A DNA stretch of 64,000 bases. Source: Thermoanaerobacterium aotearoense (GTDB lineage: Bacteria; Bacillota; Thermoanaerobacteria; Thermoanaerobacterales; Thermoanaerobacteraceae). Position 1 is the first letter of the stretch, and every line of letters starts with the position of its first letter. Positions 41,806-51,278 of this stretch are shown here, piece by piece. Position numbers and translations under genes: made by a program. The stretch covers positions 620,001-684,000 of the forward strand of contig NZ_CP047602.1 of assembly GCF_009905255.1 (NCBI RefSeq). The letters run 5' to 3'. A model generated the notes under the pieces. That model was not told the DNA's origin and ran no database searches. It saw only the letters and a program-made list of their open reading frames with translations.

Positions 41806-41835
41806 AGTATGAGGTATTGCCTCATACTTTTTTTA
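41804..41835. terminator. bidirectional terminator
   Basis: Perfect stem AAAGTATGAGG with CCTCATACTTT, loop TATTG, T run. The right arm overlaps the last codons of the minus-strand peptidase. Confidence 0.9.
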
Positions 41836-43063
41836 ATGCCATTTCTACATTTATCATCCCATATCCTTGTGAATAGTACCTGTAGTGGTCTACATTTGTG
41901 GTAGTAGATTTTAAGATGTTTTTTATTTGGTAATTTGTCAGTGAAGGATTTTTTTCCAAAAGAAGTGCTGCTGCTCCGGCTACAATTGGTGTTGCCATTG
42001 ATGTACCAGATGCCGTTCTGTATGATTTGTTAAGAAGGATGTTGTCGTCAGTTCCTATTGGAACATTTCCTGATGCGGCTGAAACGATCTTTACGCCAGG
42101 TGCTACTACATCAGGTTTTGGCAAGAAAGCGGATCCTCTTCCTGAGAAATTGGCAATCTCATCGTCTGAAGTGTCAACAGTTCTTTTGTCATCAACTGCA
42201 CCAACTGTTATAACATTCATGCTGTTTCCCGGAGATGTTATAGAATTCATAGACGGCCCCGAATTGCCAGCCGCTACTACAACAACCAATCCACTTCTCC
42301 AAAGCCTATCTACTCCTTTGACAAGAGGGTCTAAAAAAGGAGGCAATGATGGTGTTTCACCGATGGAAAGTGAAACAATTCTTATATTGTATTTATCTTT
42401 GTTGTCAAGTATCCACTGCATACCTGACAGTATATCTGATGTTGAACCGCTACCTCTGGAATCCAAAACTTTTACTGATACTATATTTGCTTCAGGTGCT
42501 ACACCTTTGTACTTGCCATCTGATAAATAACCGCTGGATGCGGCATCGCCTGCCACATGGGTACCGTGGCCGTTGTCATCGTATGGACTTTTTTTTCCGT
42601 TTACAATGTCGTGAAATGCAATTATCCTGTTTTTGGGTTTAGTGAAGTCTGGATGAGGGTAAATTCCTGTGTCTAAAAAAGCTATTGTTACGCCTTTACC
42701 AGTGTATCCATGATCATTTGCCTCTCTTGATTTGATTTCCTGTGTGGCAATGTTAAGCTGTGTTTTTACAGTTGAATCTTCAGCTATAAATTTTATGCCT
42801 TTATTTTTTGCGATGATGTTCAGCTTATTGCACGGTATGTTTACAGCCCAACCGTTGATGATAGGCAGTTCGTATTTTATCGTTCCTCCAATTGATTCTA
42901 TCTTTTTTTTAAGCGCATCATATGGCAAATTGGAATACACAATAGCGCTAACACATTCACTCCTATATATAGAAGCTTTTCTCAATAACCTTGAATCTAT
43001 TTTGCTTTTGGGATAAAGGCTTTGAATGACACTCGATAAAATCAGCGCAGAAATTATATCCAT
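41822..43063 (-). CDS. subtilisin-like serine protease (S8), AprX-type
   Basis: A 413-residue subtilase with the full triad: Asp in IAFLDTGIYPHPD (about 129-141), His in DDNGHGTHVAGDAA (about 162-175) and Ser in ASGTSMATPIVAG (about 355-367); the oxyanion Asn is in VVAAAGNSGPS. Residues 30-110 resemble an I9-type propeptide (YRSECVSAIVYSN, VNIPCNKLNIIA). The N-terminus has only a weak hydrophobic stretch and no clear signal peptide, so it may act inside the cell or, in spore formers, in the mother cell. The ATG has AAAGGGGG upstream. It diverges from the mini-protein cluster. Confidence 0.9.
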   Translation of the reverse strand: MDIISALILSSVIQSLYPKSKIDSRLLRKASIYRSECVSAIVYSNLPYDALKKKIESIGGTIKYELPIINGWAVNIPCNKLNIIAKNKGIKFIAEDSTVKTQLNIATQEIKSREANDHGYTGKGVTIAFLDTGIYPHPDFTKPKNRIIAFHDIVNGKKSPYDDNGHGTHVAGDAASSGYLSDGKYKGVAPEANIVSVKVLDSRGSGSTSDILSGMQWILDNKDKYNIRIVSLSIGETPSLPPFLDPLVKGVDRLWRSGLVVVVAAGNSGPSMNSITSPGNSMNVITVGAVDDKRTVDTSDDEIANFSGRGSAFLPKPDVVAPGVKIVSAASGNVPIGTDDNILLNKSYRTASGTSMATPIVAGAAALLLEKNPSLTNYQIKNILKSTTTNVDHYRYYSQGYGMINVEMALKKV

Positions 43064-43212
43064 AAATTAAATCCCCCTTTCTTATATCAGAATATGTTTA
43101 AGGTAAATTTTTGTTAGTTTTTAAATTGGAAGTGTCACAAATATTGGCGGTGTCATATTATGTATTAGGTCAAAAAGACCTGACATAAATCTTGCGAAAG
43201 GGGGATATTTAT

Positions 43213-43329
43213 ATGCCCACAGAGAAAGGTGCATCATGGATAGGCGGTGGATGGTTCTGGATTATAATTATAATACTTCTTATCTTCTTGTTTGTACCTG
43301 GCTTCATAGTCGAAGAGCCTAAAGCTTGA
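43213..43329 (+). CDS. mini membrane protein A1 (Gly/Trp start, 38 residues)
   Basis: A 38-residue ORF with GAAAGGGGG before the ATG. It reads MPTEKGASWIGGGWFW, then an Ile/Leu-rich membrane helix (about 17-28), VPGFIVEE and a short tail. It is a homologue of the ORFs at 43913 and 44039. The glycine-tryptophan start and single helix recall YjcZ-type small spore proteins, but I cannot prove membership. The leader has a small stem AGGTC/GACCT at 43178-43192, and the sequence TATGTATTAGGTC upstream recurs near 43870. Confidence 0.7.
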   Translation: MPTEKGASWIGGGWFWIIIIILLIFLFVPGFIVEEPKA

Positions 43330-43360
43330 TTAAATTTAAAATTTTAAAAGGAGGATTATT

Positions 43361-43546
43361 ATGGCAGGAACAAGTTCAGTATTTGGCGAAAGCAATTTGC
43401 TGTTCTTCTTCTTAATTCTCGTTGTCCTTATGGGCGGCGGATGGTTTGGCGGAGCATGGTCAATGGAAACATTGCTGTTCTTCTTCGTACTTTTAGTCAT
43501 AATCATGGACGGTGGAATGGGATTATTCTTAAATCAAGTCAAATAA
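43361..43546 (+). CDS. mini membrane protein B1 (double LLFFF repeat, 61 residues)
   Basis: A 61-residue protein with AAAGGAGG before the ATG. It has two copies of a hydrophobic unit: SNLLFFFLILVVLMGGGWF (about 11-29) and ETLLFFFVLLVIIMDGG (about 36-52), which suggests an internal duplication and a two-helix hairpin. I do not know a named family. It follows A1 by 31 bases and is followed by a strong hairpin. Confidence 0.7.
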   Translation: MAGTSSVFGESNLLFFFLILVVLMGGGWFGGAWSMETLLFFFVLLVIIMDGGMGLFLNQVK

Positions 43547-43549
43547 AGC

Positions 43550-43579
43550 AAATGGTCCTATCTTGCGGTAGGACCATTT
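43550..43579 (+). terminator. hairpin after B1
   Basis: Perfect 11-pair stem AAATGGTCCTA with TAGGACCATTT. The tail is not T-rich, so it may end transcription only partly or protect the mRNA. Confidence 0.65.
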
Positions 43580-43663
43580 ATATTACATAAAAGACGAAAT
43601 CAATATCAATAATCAGAAATGAGAATATAATGAATTAAAGTAAATTAAAATGGAGCTGATCTT

Positions 43664-43855
43664 ATGAATATATCTGGAAATACGCTTCTATTCTTTTTTG
43701 TCATATTGACTGTCGTAATGGATGTGAGGTTTGAATTCGAAGATTTGCTGTTTTTCTTTCTTCTGTTAGTCGTCTTACAGCAAGACAAACCGCGGAAAAA
43801 AGCAAGGCGCTTTTTGTGGTCACTGGCCACCATGAATTTCAGTAACAATATTTAA
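43664..43855 (+). CDS. mini membrane protein B2 (double LLFFF repeat, basic tail)
   Basis: A 63-residue relative of B1. The first unit is NTLLFFFVILTVVMD (about 6-20) and the second EDLLFFFLLLVVLQQ (about 26-40), followed by a strongly basic tail KPRKKARRFL that B1 lacks. The ribosome site is weak (GGAGCTG). It lies between the B1 hairpin and the repeated TAATGTATTAGGTC element. Confidence 0.6.
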   Translation: MNISGNTLLFFFVILTVVMDVRFEFEDLLFFFLLLVVLQQDKPRKKARRFLWSLATMNFSNNI

Positions 43856-43912
43856 CACATCACGTATAATGTATTAGGTCCTTGAGGCCAAAAAATAAAG
43901 GAGGTTTTTAGT

Positions 43913-44020
43913 ATGCCTGAAGGGAAAGGAGCAGCATGGGGCGGCGGATGGATCTGGATCATAATCATAATACTAATAATTTTCCTCTTTGTACCTGGAA
44001 TATTTGTGGTCGATAAATAA
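43913..44020 (+). CDS. mini membrane protein A2 (35 residues)
   Basis: A 35-residue ORF preceded by AAAGGAGG. It begins MPEGKGAAWGGGWIW, continues with an Ile-rich helix and ends VPGIFVVDK. It is nearly identical to A3, 126 bases downstream, in protein and DNA, so the pair arose by recent tandem duplication. Function unknown; similar to A1 at 43213. Confidence 0.7.
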   Translation: MPEGKGAAWGGGWIWIIIIILIIFLFVPGIFVVDK

Positions 44021-44038
44021 TGTGAAGGGGGTTTTCAT

Positions 44039-44149
44039 ATGCCTGAGGGAAAAGGAGCAGCATGGGGCGGTGGATGGATTTGGATCATAATAGTGATCCT
44101 TATAATCTTCTTGTTTGTCCCAGGTATTTTTGTGGTGGATAAGAAATAA
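44039..44149 (+). CDS. mini membrane protein A3 (36 residues)
   Basis: A 36-residue near-copy of A2 with AAGGGGG before the ATG. The differences are one Ile-to-Val change in the helix and an extra C-terminal Lys. It begins MPEGKGAAWGGGW and ends VDKK. It is the last of the five small genes and is followed by a terminator. Confidence 0.7.
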   Translation: MPEGKGAAWGGGWIWIIIVILIIFLFVPGIFVVDKK

Positions 44150-44156
44150 AAGCATG

Positions 44157-44180
44157 GGGCAGGTGATAATAAACCTGCCC
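44157..44180 (+). terminator. terminator after A3
   Basis: GGGCAGGT pairs with ACCTGCCC around an eight-base A/T loop; tail TATACATATA. Confidence 0.7.
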
Positions 44181-44227: not shown

Positions 44228-45232
44228 GTGGATAGAGAAAAATTACTAAAGGTATTGATAATTGAACTTTTCATAATATTTTTTATAAGGTTTCAAATTT
44301 TTGATGGCTTAAGTCTTGAAGGTGAAAGGCGGCTTTTAAAGAAAAAAGAAGACGAAGAGATTGTGGATCATGGTAAAGATGATAAAACAGAAGGCAAAAA
44401 GGACGATGAGAAGAAAAACGATTTGGATATATTTGAGATAATAGAGAAAAGCAAAAACTTTATGGGAAGCGTTAAACCATATCTACACAGGAAGGAACAG
44501 TACTACATAGATATCTTCACAAAAATTGCCGAAATACTTGAATGCCACAGACAGTTGATGGAATTTAATCAAGAAGCTGAAGTGCAAGAAGACGACTTCG
44601 ATCAGATTGGAATGCTAAAAGCAGTAAAACCGTATATGAAAGAAGATAAACAGATAATCATAGATAAATTTATAAAACTTCACGAAGGAATACAAAACCT
44701 AAACGAGAAAATGAAAAAATACGAAGTTGAAGGAGATAAAAATAACATCATAGATAAAATCTTGGACATTTTTGAAGCGATAAAACCTGTTATTCCGGAT
44801 GATAAAAAGGACATGGCAGAGAAAATCATAAAGAATATAAAGCTTGTAGAAGCTTTAAACAAGGCTGAAAGCATTATGAATTCAAAAAATAGCGAATCAA
44901 GGCACGAGAAGGTGGAAGAAAGCGATAAAGGCGATGTGAAGAATGATTTATTTGACAGATCTAAAGAAGATAAAAATATAGAAGAAGTTAAAGTTGCAGA
45001 AAACGCCGCAAGTGATGAAATGGTGGAAGATGTAAAAAGCAATGATTCAGAAAAGGAAACAAAAGAGGATGATGTGCCGAAAAGTCTTGGACTTACAGAG
45101 CAGCAGTCGGAAGTCGTAAACGGTCTTAAATCAATGCTTACAAAGGAACAGCAGCAATTTATGTACAACATGATAAATTATCTAAAACAACAAAGTTCAA
45201 ATGGCAATGTAAATAATGTTGCAGGCAGCTAA
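44228..45232 (+). CDS. membrane-anchored acidic protein with four helical repeats
   Basis: A 334-residue protein I do not recognise. The GTG start lies 7 bases after GGGGG. One membrane helix near the N-terminus (about 7-24, VLIIELFIIFFI) is followed by a very charged Lys/Glu/Asp region. Three similar helical units follow at about 71-113, 127-165 and 178-218, each with a VKP-like start (SVKPYLHRKEQ, AVKPYMKEDKQ, AIKPVIPDDKK), about 51 residues apart. After an acidic linker a fourth shorter unit occurs (GLKSMLTKEQQQFM, about 299-312). Position after the mini-proteins suggests a shared role, which is inference. Confidence 0.7.
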   Translation: MDREKLLKVLIIELFIIFFIRFQIFDGLSLEGERRLLKKKEDEEIVDHGKDDKTEGKKDDEKKNDLDIFEIIEKSKNFMGSVKPYLHRKEQYYIDIFTKIAEILECHRQLMEFNQEAEVQEDDFDQIGMLKAVKPYMKEDKQIIIDKFIKLHEGIQNLNEKMKKYEVEGDKNNIIDKILDIFEAIKPVIPDDKKDMAEKIIKNIKLVEALNKAESIMNSKNSESRHEKVEESDKGDVKNDLFDRSKEDKNIEEVKVAENAASDEMVEDVKSNDSEKETKEDDVPKSLGLTEQQSEVVNGLKSMLTKEQQQFMYNMINYLKQQSSNGNVNNVAGS

Positions 45233-50692: not shown

Positions 50693-50980
50693 ATGCCATA
50701 TATTAGACCGGTATCAGATTTGAGAAATAATTTTGCAGATATATCAAGAGTCGTCCATGAAACTGGGGAGCCAGTCTTTTTAACCAAGAATGGCTATGGA
50801 GATATGGTCGTAATGAGCATGGAAGCTTATGAACGAAAACTGTTTGAAAGTGAAATTTACTTTAAGTTGAAGGAAGCGGAACTGGAAGCCCAAATAACTA
50901 AAAAGAGATATTCGCATAAAGAAATTTTTGATGAATTAAAGGCAAAAATTTCTGATAGGATGAAATCTGATAATGCATGA
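50693..50980 (+). CDS. Phd/YefM-family antitoxin
   Basis: A 95-residue protein whose N-terminus matches the Phd/YefM DNA-binding fold: IRPVSDLRNNFADISRVVHE, then GEPVFLTKNGYGDMVVMSMEAYERKL. The lysine/glutamate-rich C-terminus (about 55-95) would be the toxin-binding helix. ATG follows GGGGTGATGATTGT. It overlaps the toxin gene by 8 bases, the coupled order usual for type II systems, and is preceded by a palindromic operator. Confidence 0.9.
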   Translation: MPYIRPVSDLRNNFADISRVVHETGEPVFLTKNGYGDMVVMSMEAYERKLFESEIYFKLKEAELEAQITKKRYSHKEIFDELKAKISDRMKSDNA

Positions 50981-51278
50981 TATTAGATACCTACCTTTGG
51001 CAAGTAGAGATTTATCAAATATTGTATCTTATATTGTAGATGAATTAAAAGCACCAAATGCAGCAATGGATCTAATTAATGAATTGGATACTTCTATATC
51101 AAGGCTTGCACAGTTTCCCTATTCATGCAAGGTGTATCAACCTGAAAAACCTCTTAAAAATGAATATAGAGTATTGCCTGTAAAGAACTATTTGGTGTTT
51201 TATGTAGTTAGAGAAGATGTTGTCGAGATTCACAGGATTATATATGCTAAAATGGATTTAGCAAAGCTCATAAAATAA
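50973..51278 (+). CDS. ParE/RelE-superfamily toxin
   Basis: A 101-residue toxin of the RelE/ParE fold. Typical parts are IRYLPLASRDLSNIVSYIVDEL (helical N-terminus), LAQFPYSCKVYQPEKPL, YRVLPVKNYLVFYVVRED and VEIHRIIYAKMDLAKLI. The late RVLPVKNYLVFY block fits ParE-like members more than classic RelE, but whether the target is gyrase or mRNA cannot be told. It overlaps the antitoxin. Confidence 0.88.
   Translation: MHDIRYLPLASRDLSNIVSYIVDELKAPNAAMDLINELDTSISRLAQFPYSCKVYQPEKPLKNEYRVLPVKNYLVFYVVREDVVEIHRIIYAKMDLAKLIK

Follow-up and report, generated by a model that had tools for sequence, protein, structure and literature searches.

Five small genes in two families

The window (the whole stretch of 64,000 nucleotides that was analysed) contains five small genes of two families, A and B, arranged in the order A-B-B-A-A (Table 1). 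This order, the coordinates and the protein lengths had been given in a preliminary description of the sequence, and all are confirmed here. The genes are separated by gaps of 31 (A1-B1), 117 (B1-B2), 57 (B2-A2) and 18 bases (A2-A3). A1, A2 and A3 share a common build: a short N-terminus leads into a Trp/Phe belt and an Ile/Leu run of 15 residues, with a conserved Pro after it. B1 and B2 each have two hydrophobic segments of 11-13 residues starting with LLFFF. AlphaFold models predict two helices in each B protein; those of B2 are 14 residues each and are accompanied by a basic C-terminal helix (pLDDT ~67, moderate confidence). Shine-Dalgarno sites are good for four of the five genes (A1, B1, A2 and A3) and weaker for B2 (TGGAGCTGAT), much as described before. 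Pfam, NCBIfam, PADLOC and PHROGs contain no family matching the cluster proteins.

Table 1. Genes, promoter-like elements and RNA hairpins at the locus, by position in the window.
Feature	Position	Strand	Description
S8 (subtilisin-like) serine protease, divergent	41822..43063	-	413 aa; same position in 22 genomes
Promoter-like element of the divergent protease	43088..43117	-	CTAACA ... CATATTCTG
P1 promoter-like element	43137..43162	+	AC (43137-43138), N15, CATATTATG (43154-43162); aligned across four genera
5' hairpin	43167..43181	+	AGGTC-AAAAA-GACCT; directly after P1, at or near the expected mRNA 5' end; z = -3.5
A1	43213..43329	+	38 aa, single-span membrane microprotein; position shared in 22 genomes
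B1	43361..43546	+	61 aa, two LLFFF hydrophobic segments, predicted helical hairpin
B1-B2 hairpin	43549..43580	+	terminator or processing element; 12 pairs, z = -5.7
B2	43664..43855	+	63 aa LLFFF protein; C-terminal helix basic, amphipathic
P2 promoter-like element	43842..43871	+	GTAACA (43842-43847) ... CGTATAATG (43863-43871)
Short 5' hairpin	43877..43889	+	GGTC-CTTGA-GGCC; downstream of P2
A2	43913..44020	+	35 aa, single-span membrane microprotein
A3	44039..44149	+	36 aa, A2 paralogue; DNA identity 82%, dS ~1.6
Hairpin after A3	44157..44180	+	z = -5.3; relatives have a hairpin at the same place
Lysine/glutamate-rich protein, downstream	44228..45232	+	334 aa, KPY repeats, conserved neighbour

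The five ORFs are genuine genes under strong purifying selection. Conservation extends over 22 genomes, and dN is much lower than dS; in comparisons against the genome of the window (G000), dS and dN are 0.56 and 0.06 for B1 (G004) and 0.41 and 0.02 for A1 (G001). Purifying selection and conservation across genera together identify a conserved protein-coding family. Several conserved RNA hairpins lie in this region, as would be expected if the ORFs were chance reading frames within a regulatory RNA, but that reading can be set aside with near certainty because the ORFs are conserved: synonymous change lies far above nonsynonymous change, conservation at the protein level extends across two families, and the genes have Shine-Dalgarno sites and unlinked paralogues. 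Silent-site change in B1 is very low within the genus (dS 0.20, G000/G005) next to a saturated B2, which suggests high expression or an overlapping constraint.

A2 and A3 had been thought nearly identical in DNA and the product of a recent tandem duplication. This does not hold: their DNA is only 82.4% identical, and with dS ~1.6 and dN ~0.03 their silent sites are near-saturated. Since this dS exceeds that of B1 between species of Thermoanaerobacterium (0.20-0.56), the duplication is old relative to species divergence, and selection keeps the two proteins near-identical. Other species (G001, G005 and G007) have a single copy that is nearer to A3 (88%) than to A2 (82%), and G009 (genus g2) has two more divergent A2-like genes.

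Conservation of the locus and its neighbours

Among 80 relatives searched at a loose cut-off, A was found in 25 genomes and B1 in 30. Matches are strong in all of family f1 (9 + 1 + 10 genomes, three genera) and weaker in f3. The locus itself is conserved across 22 genomes that represent four genera and two families; the order is A1-B1-B2-A2, followed in some species by A3. It reads: divergent S8 protease, A1, B1, hairpin, B2, A2, (A3), lysine/glutamate-rich protein, groES, groEL. The protease lies upstream in 22/22 loci and groEL downstream in 21, the last contig stopping short of groEL. Variants include an additional A-like ORF between A1 and B1 (genus g5), an A2 that is unrecognisable in some genomes of Thermoanaerobacter (g3) and a truncated B2 in one genome (G019). 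In two Thermoanaerobacter genomes (G012 and G015, the latter T. wiegelii), mobile elements sit between B1, B2 and A2, and the ORFs remain open.

A second, partial A/B cluster occurs in G001, G005 and G007, and each of the three f1 genera has a solo A gene at an unlinked site. Across 398 genomes of the phylum, the B2 profile gave strong matches only in Thermoanaerobacterium (g1) and Thermoanaerobacter, to which a combined B profile added weak matches only. The A profile gave weak matches in 22 further genomes, some of them tiny Gly/Trp-rich single-span proteins whose kinship is putative.

The S8 protease has no match above any NCBIfam cut-off, and the 334-aa lysine/glutamate-rich protein belongs to no known family in Pfam or NCBIfam. 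Besides its KPY-type repeats, the latter has an N-terminal hydrophobic segment, and a sigma-E promoter-like element (TGATAATA-N12-ACATATATTA) lies upstream of it. The second partial cluster adjoins a His-rich 138-aa protein in G001 and G005 (L075:3013-3429 and L076:7053-7469), which has no NCBIfam match.

Promoter-like elements and RNA hairpins

P1 takes the form TCAC-N15-CATATTATG in genera g1-g3 and AC-N17-CATATTATA in g5, while P2 reads GTAAC-N16/17-CGTATAATG, with CATATAATA in g2. The -35 of P2 overlaps the 3' end of B2, and its GTAACA is kept even in species where B2 ends in another frame, so that it must be conserved as a DNA element. The second partial cluster and the solo A gene have the same kind of element. 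The divergent protease has AC-N16-CATA in G000, and this AC is lost in several relatives.

The preliminary description had proposed a search for sigma motifs upstream of the cluster. This search found AC-N15..17-CRTAWWAT before A-family genes at several loci in four genera. We compared 14 promoters from the main cluster, the second partial cluster and the unlinked solo gene across these genera; in 13 of them, AC stands 15-17 bases before C(A/G)TA(T/A)(T/A)AT, compared with a mean of 2.05 and a maximum of 7 in 5000 shuffles, although the 13 are not independent, as A-family promoters are partly related by descent. The P2 of G009, additional to these, reads AC-N16-CATATAATA.

The published sigma-K motif pairs a 5-base -35 with a 10-base -10 across a gap of 14-16 bases, and the sigma-E motif is 8 + 12 + 10 (PMC517825). 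The sigma-K consensus AC-N16/17-CATAnnnTA is matched or nearly matched in 13/14 promoters, with P2 also readable as a sigma-A promoter; the P1 spacing of 15 in g1-g3 is one or two below the sigma-K optimum. As reference genes, spoIVA has a sigma-E-type element (TTCATATT-N12-TCATATATAT), and AC-N17-CATATTATA precedes yabG in another family and in the genus, where most species show it; P1, P2 and the solo promoters thus resemble the yabG type. The genome of the window itself does not keep this -35 AC of yabG (ATAGCA). Genome-wide, a strict sigma-K-like pattern is not enriched, and its few other matches are not known spore genes; AACA-N14..16-CATATTAT gave 4 matches, the same as a reversed-pattern control. 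The evidence favours the mother-cell side (sigma-K-like) over forespore sigma-F/G.

A shared leader before A1 and A2 had also been described, and it is present: in the 2.67-Mb genome, exact copies of its 15-base core, CRTATWATRTAKTAG, occur upstream of genes in two places only, before A1 and A2. It consists of the end of a promoter-like element and a 5' RNA hairpin. In a genome-wide search, the extended leader was exact and upstream of genes only at the two cluster promoters, and therefore defines no wider regulon. Two stem pairs of the 5' hairpin are changed on both sides across paralogous leaders. The P1 hairpin folds better than shuffles, whereas the P2 hairpin alone is not stabler than its shuffles.

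The B1-B2 hairpin is 99.2% paired, with four pairs doubly changed among 11 sequences. The Rfam Histone3 stem-loop matched it below threshold (22.4 vs 34 bits), which we take as chance. These elements suggest two transcription blocks, in which P1 would serve A1-B1, closed by the covarying hairpin, and P2 would serve A2 and A3, with B2 between them.

A possible role in sporulation

All genomes carrying A or B have spoIVA, but since spoIVA is found in nearly all relatives (74/81 genomes) its distribution does not discriminate the carriers. All carriers tested have yabG, as does family f2; it is absent from 4/4 tested genomes of genus g7. Carriers occur only in lineages that retain spoIVA and, where it was searched for, yabG. 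A and B are absent from all 13 genomes of family f4 (a sister family in the same class), which are probably Caldicellulosiruptor (g7) and a close genus; Caldicellulosiruptor is listed as non-sporogenous (PMC3533761). Family f2 belongs to the same order and has both spoIVA and yabG, with no clear A or B, which counts against a link to sporulation. A literature search found no transcriptome or spore proteome for these genera.

Within g7, spoIVA is missing in one genome and interrupted by TAG in another (G034 and G036), a sign of sporulation-gene decay under way; the other g7 genomes keep the gene. We found no true orthologue of dpaA (dipicolinate synthase A, TIGR02853) in Thermoanaerobacterium, Thermoanaerobacter, g2 or g5, and the match in f2 and g7 is much better than in f1/f3. 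dpaA was dropped as a sigma-K reference gene, as f1/f3 are without a true orthologue. Spore formers of this kind may make dipicolinate by another route.

The interpretation we favour, with somewhat better than even confidence, is that A and B are late mother-cell sporulation membrane microproteins of two lineage-specific families, under the control of sigma-K or a sigma-K-like factor. The most serious competitor makes them vegetative sigma-A membrane microproteins (involved in envelope stress, or as respiratory or transport subunits), with a functional adjacency to groESL. P2 is indeed the best sigma-70 match of the region (GTAACA-N17-TATAAT, 10/12), P1 can be read as GTCACA-N16-TATTAT, and groESL is always the downstream neighbour. 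However, the -35 keeps GT(A/C)AC and never drifts to TTGACA in four genera, a C is retained before (A/G)TATWAT, AC at 16-17 accompanies CATATTAT or CATAATAT in the unlinked solo paralogues, and a hairpin separates the cluster from the groESL side, all of which make vegetative expression unlikely. Sporulation genes could instead be made in the forespore under sigma-F/G and act at the inner forespore membrane. We give this little credence: while the P1 -10 (CATATTA) also fits the forespore pattern CATnnTA, neither P2 (CGTATAAT) nor the solo genes of G000 and G009 (CATAATAT) fit it, there is no GNATA-type -35 at 17-18 bases, and AC stands at 15-17 in 13/14 promoters.

The A genes also recall type I toxins held by antisense RNA (Ldr, Fst, TxpA/BsrG) in their size (35-38 aa), single span, tandem copies and structured leader with its mRNA 5' hairpin. 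Yet A is inherited vertically at one syntenic position in 22 genomes and in an operon-like setting, where A1 shares one unit with B1. No antisense gene was found, Rfam antitoxins and PADLOC gave no match, and searches of viral contigs with the A profile and of plasmids with B1 were likewise empty. A toxin function accordingly seems very improbable.

Returning to mother-cell microproteins, the A and B products are probably small building blocks of the spore outer membrane or coat. A spore-coat or forespore-membrane role had been suggested before; mother-cell-type promoters and the distribution of carriers support it indirectly, and place it on the mother-cell side rather than under forespore sigma-F/G. 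In such a scheme, P1 and P2 would be read by an RNA polymerase containing sigma-K, or a mother-cell sigma resembling it, giving short mRNAs that carry a stabilising 5' hairpin. The proteins would insert into the outer forespore membrane, the one that faces the mother cell; A would do so through its Trp/Ile-rich helix and B through a short Phe-rich helical hairpin, aided in B2 by the basic amphipathic tail, and both would later belong to the coat base. Because Phe-rich helices of this kind hardly span a bilayer, and given that tail, we infer that B may take an interfacial or re-entrant position, as in SpoVM-like proteins. A and B could then pack into a layer of small proteins by which these thermophiles anchor or seal the coat or spore envelope. 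It is conceivable, if decidedly unlikely, that they form two halves of one order-specific structure, a hetero-oligomeric layer at the outer forespore membrane that provides the membrane anchoring for which Bacillus uses unrelated small coat proteins, with the S8 protease processing or policing it and the adjacent GroES/GroEL helping it to fold.

By analogy, the nearest kind appears to be the tiny single-span sporulation proteins YjcZ, SscA and SpoVM. SscA (36 aa) and SpoVM (26 aa) of B. subtilis are very short hydrophobic or amphipathic mother-cell proteins for coat assembly. The cluster proteins are similarly short and hydrophobic or amphipathic, with a presumed mother-cell origin, but B has two Phe-rich segments, a feature absent from SscA and SpoVM. 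No sequence relation to either was detected. YjcZ (TIGR01732, tiny_TM_bacill) of Bacillus has a tiny Gly-rich N-terminus and one Ile/Leu/Val-rich span, often in several tandem copies. The A proteins share the Gly-rich N-terminus, the single span and the tandem copies, but differ in the Trp/Phe before the span and the conserved Pro after it. TIGR01732 gave no hit above the model cut-off in 25 genomes and none at this cluster, and searches of NCBIfam and Pfam with A1-A3, B1 and B2, allowing E values as high as 10, gave no match to this family. Membership of the YjcZ family, for which the curated cut-off was not reached, was therefore rejected, and we class the cluster as putative sporulation membrane microproteins of two unnamed families. 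In B. subtilis, yjcZ counts among the sigma-K genes (PMC517825).

Little is known of the coat and membrane-anchor proteins that clostridial spores contain, since these are short and Bacillus does not share them. The two families are ready candidates for genetic work in Thermoanaerobacterium saccharolyticum, an industrial thermophile that can be transformed, and illustrate that genes of 35-63 codons, easily overlooked in annotation, can be recovered through synteny and selection.

Related-looking proteins occur elsewhere. A 96-aa protein from Tissierellia (L193:2866-3156) shares a C-terminal LLFFFLILV...SMETLLWFFLLLV (49% identity over 48 residues), but has a 50-residue hydrophilic, Cys-containing (Cys-rich) N-terminus and stands alone, adjoining ilvB/ilvN-type genes. 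Further tiny Gly-rich single-span proteins are found at L239:1468-1805 and L207:1483-1599; those at L239 are two in tandem, beside a protein starting MTSLQFRYDGYKKPEQ. Such proteins are possibly a widespread unannotated class in Clostridia. Elsewhere in the window, an ORF at 50973-51278 resembles a RelE/ParE-type toxin.
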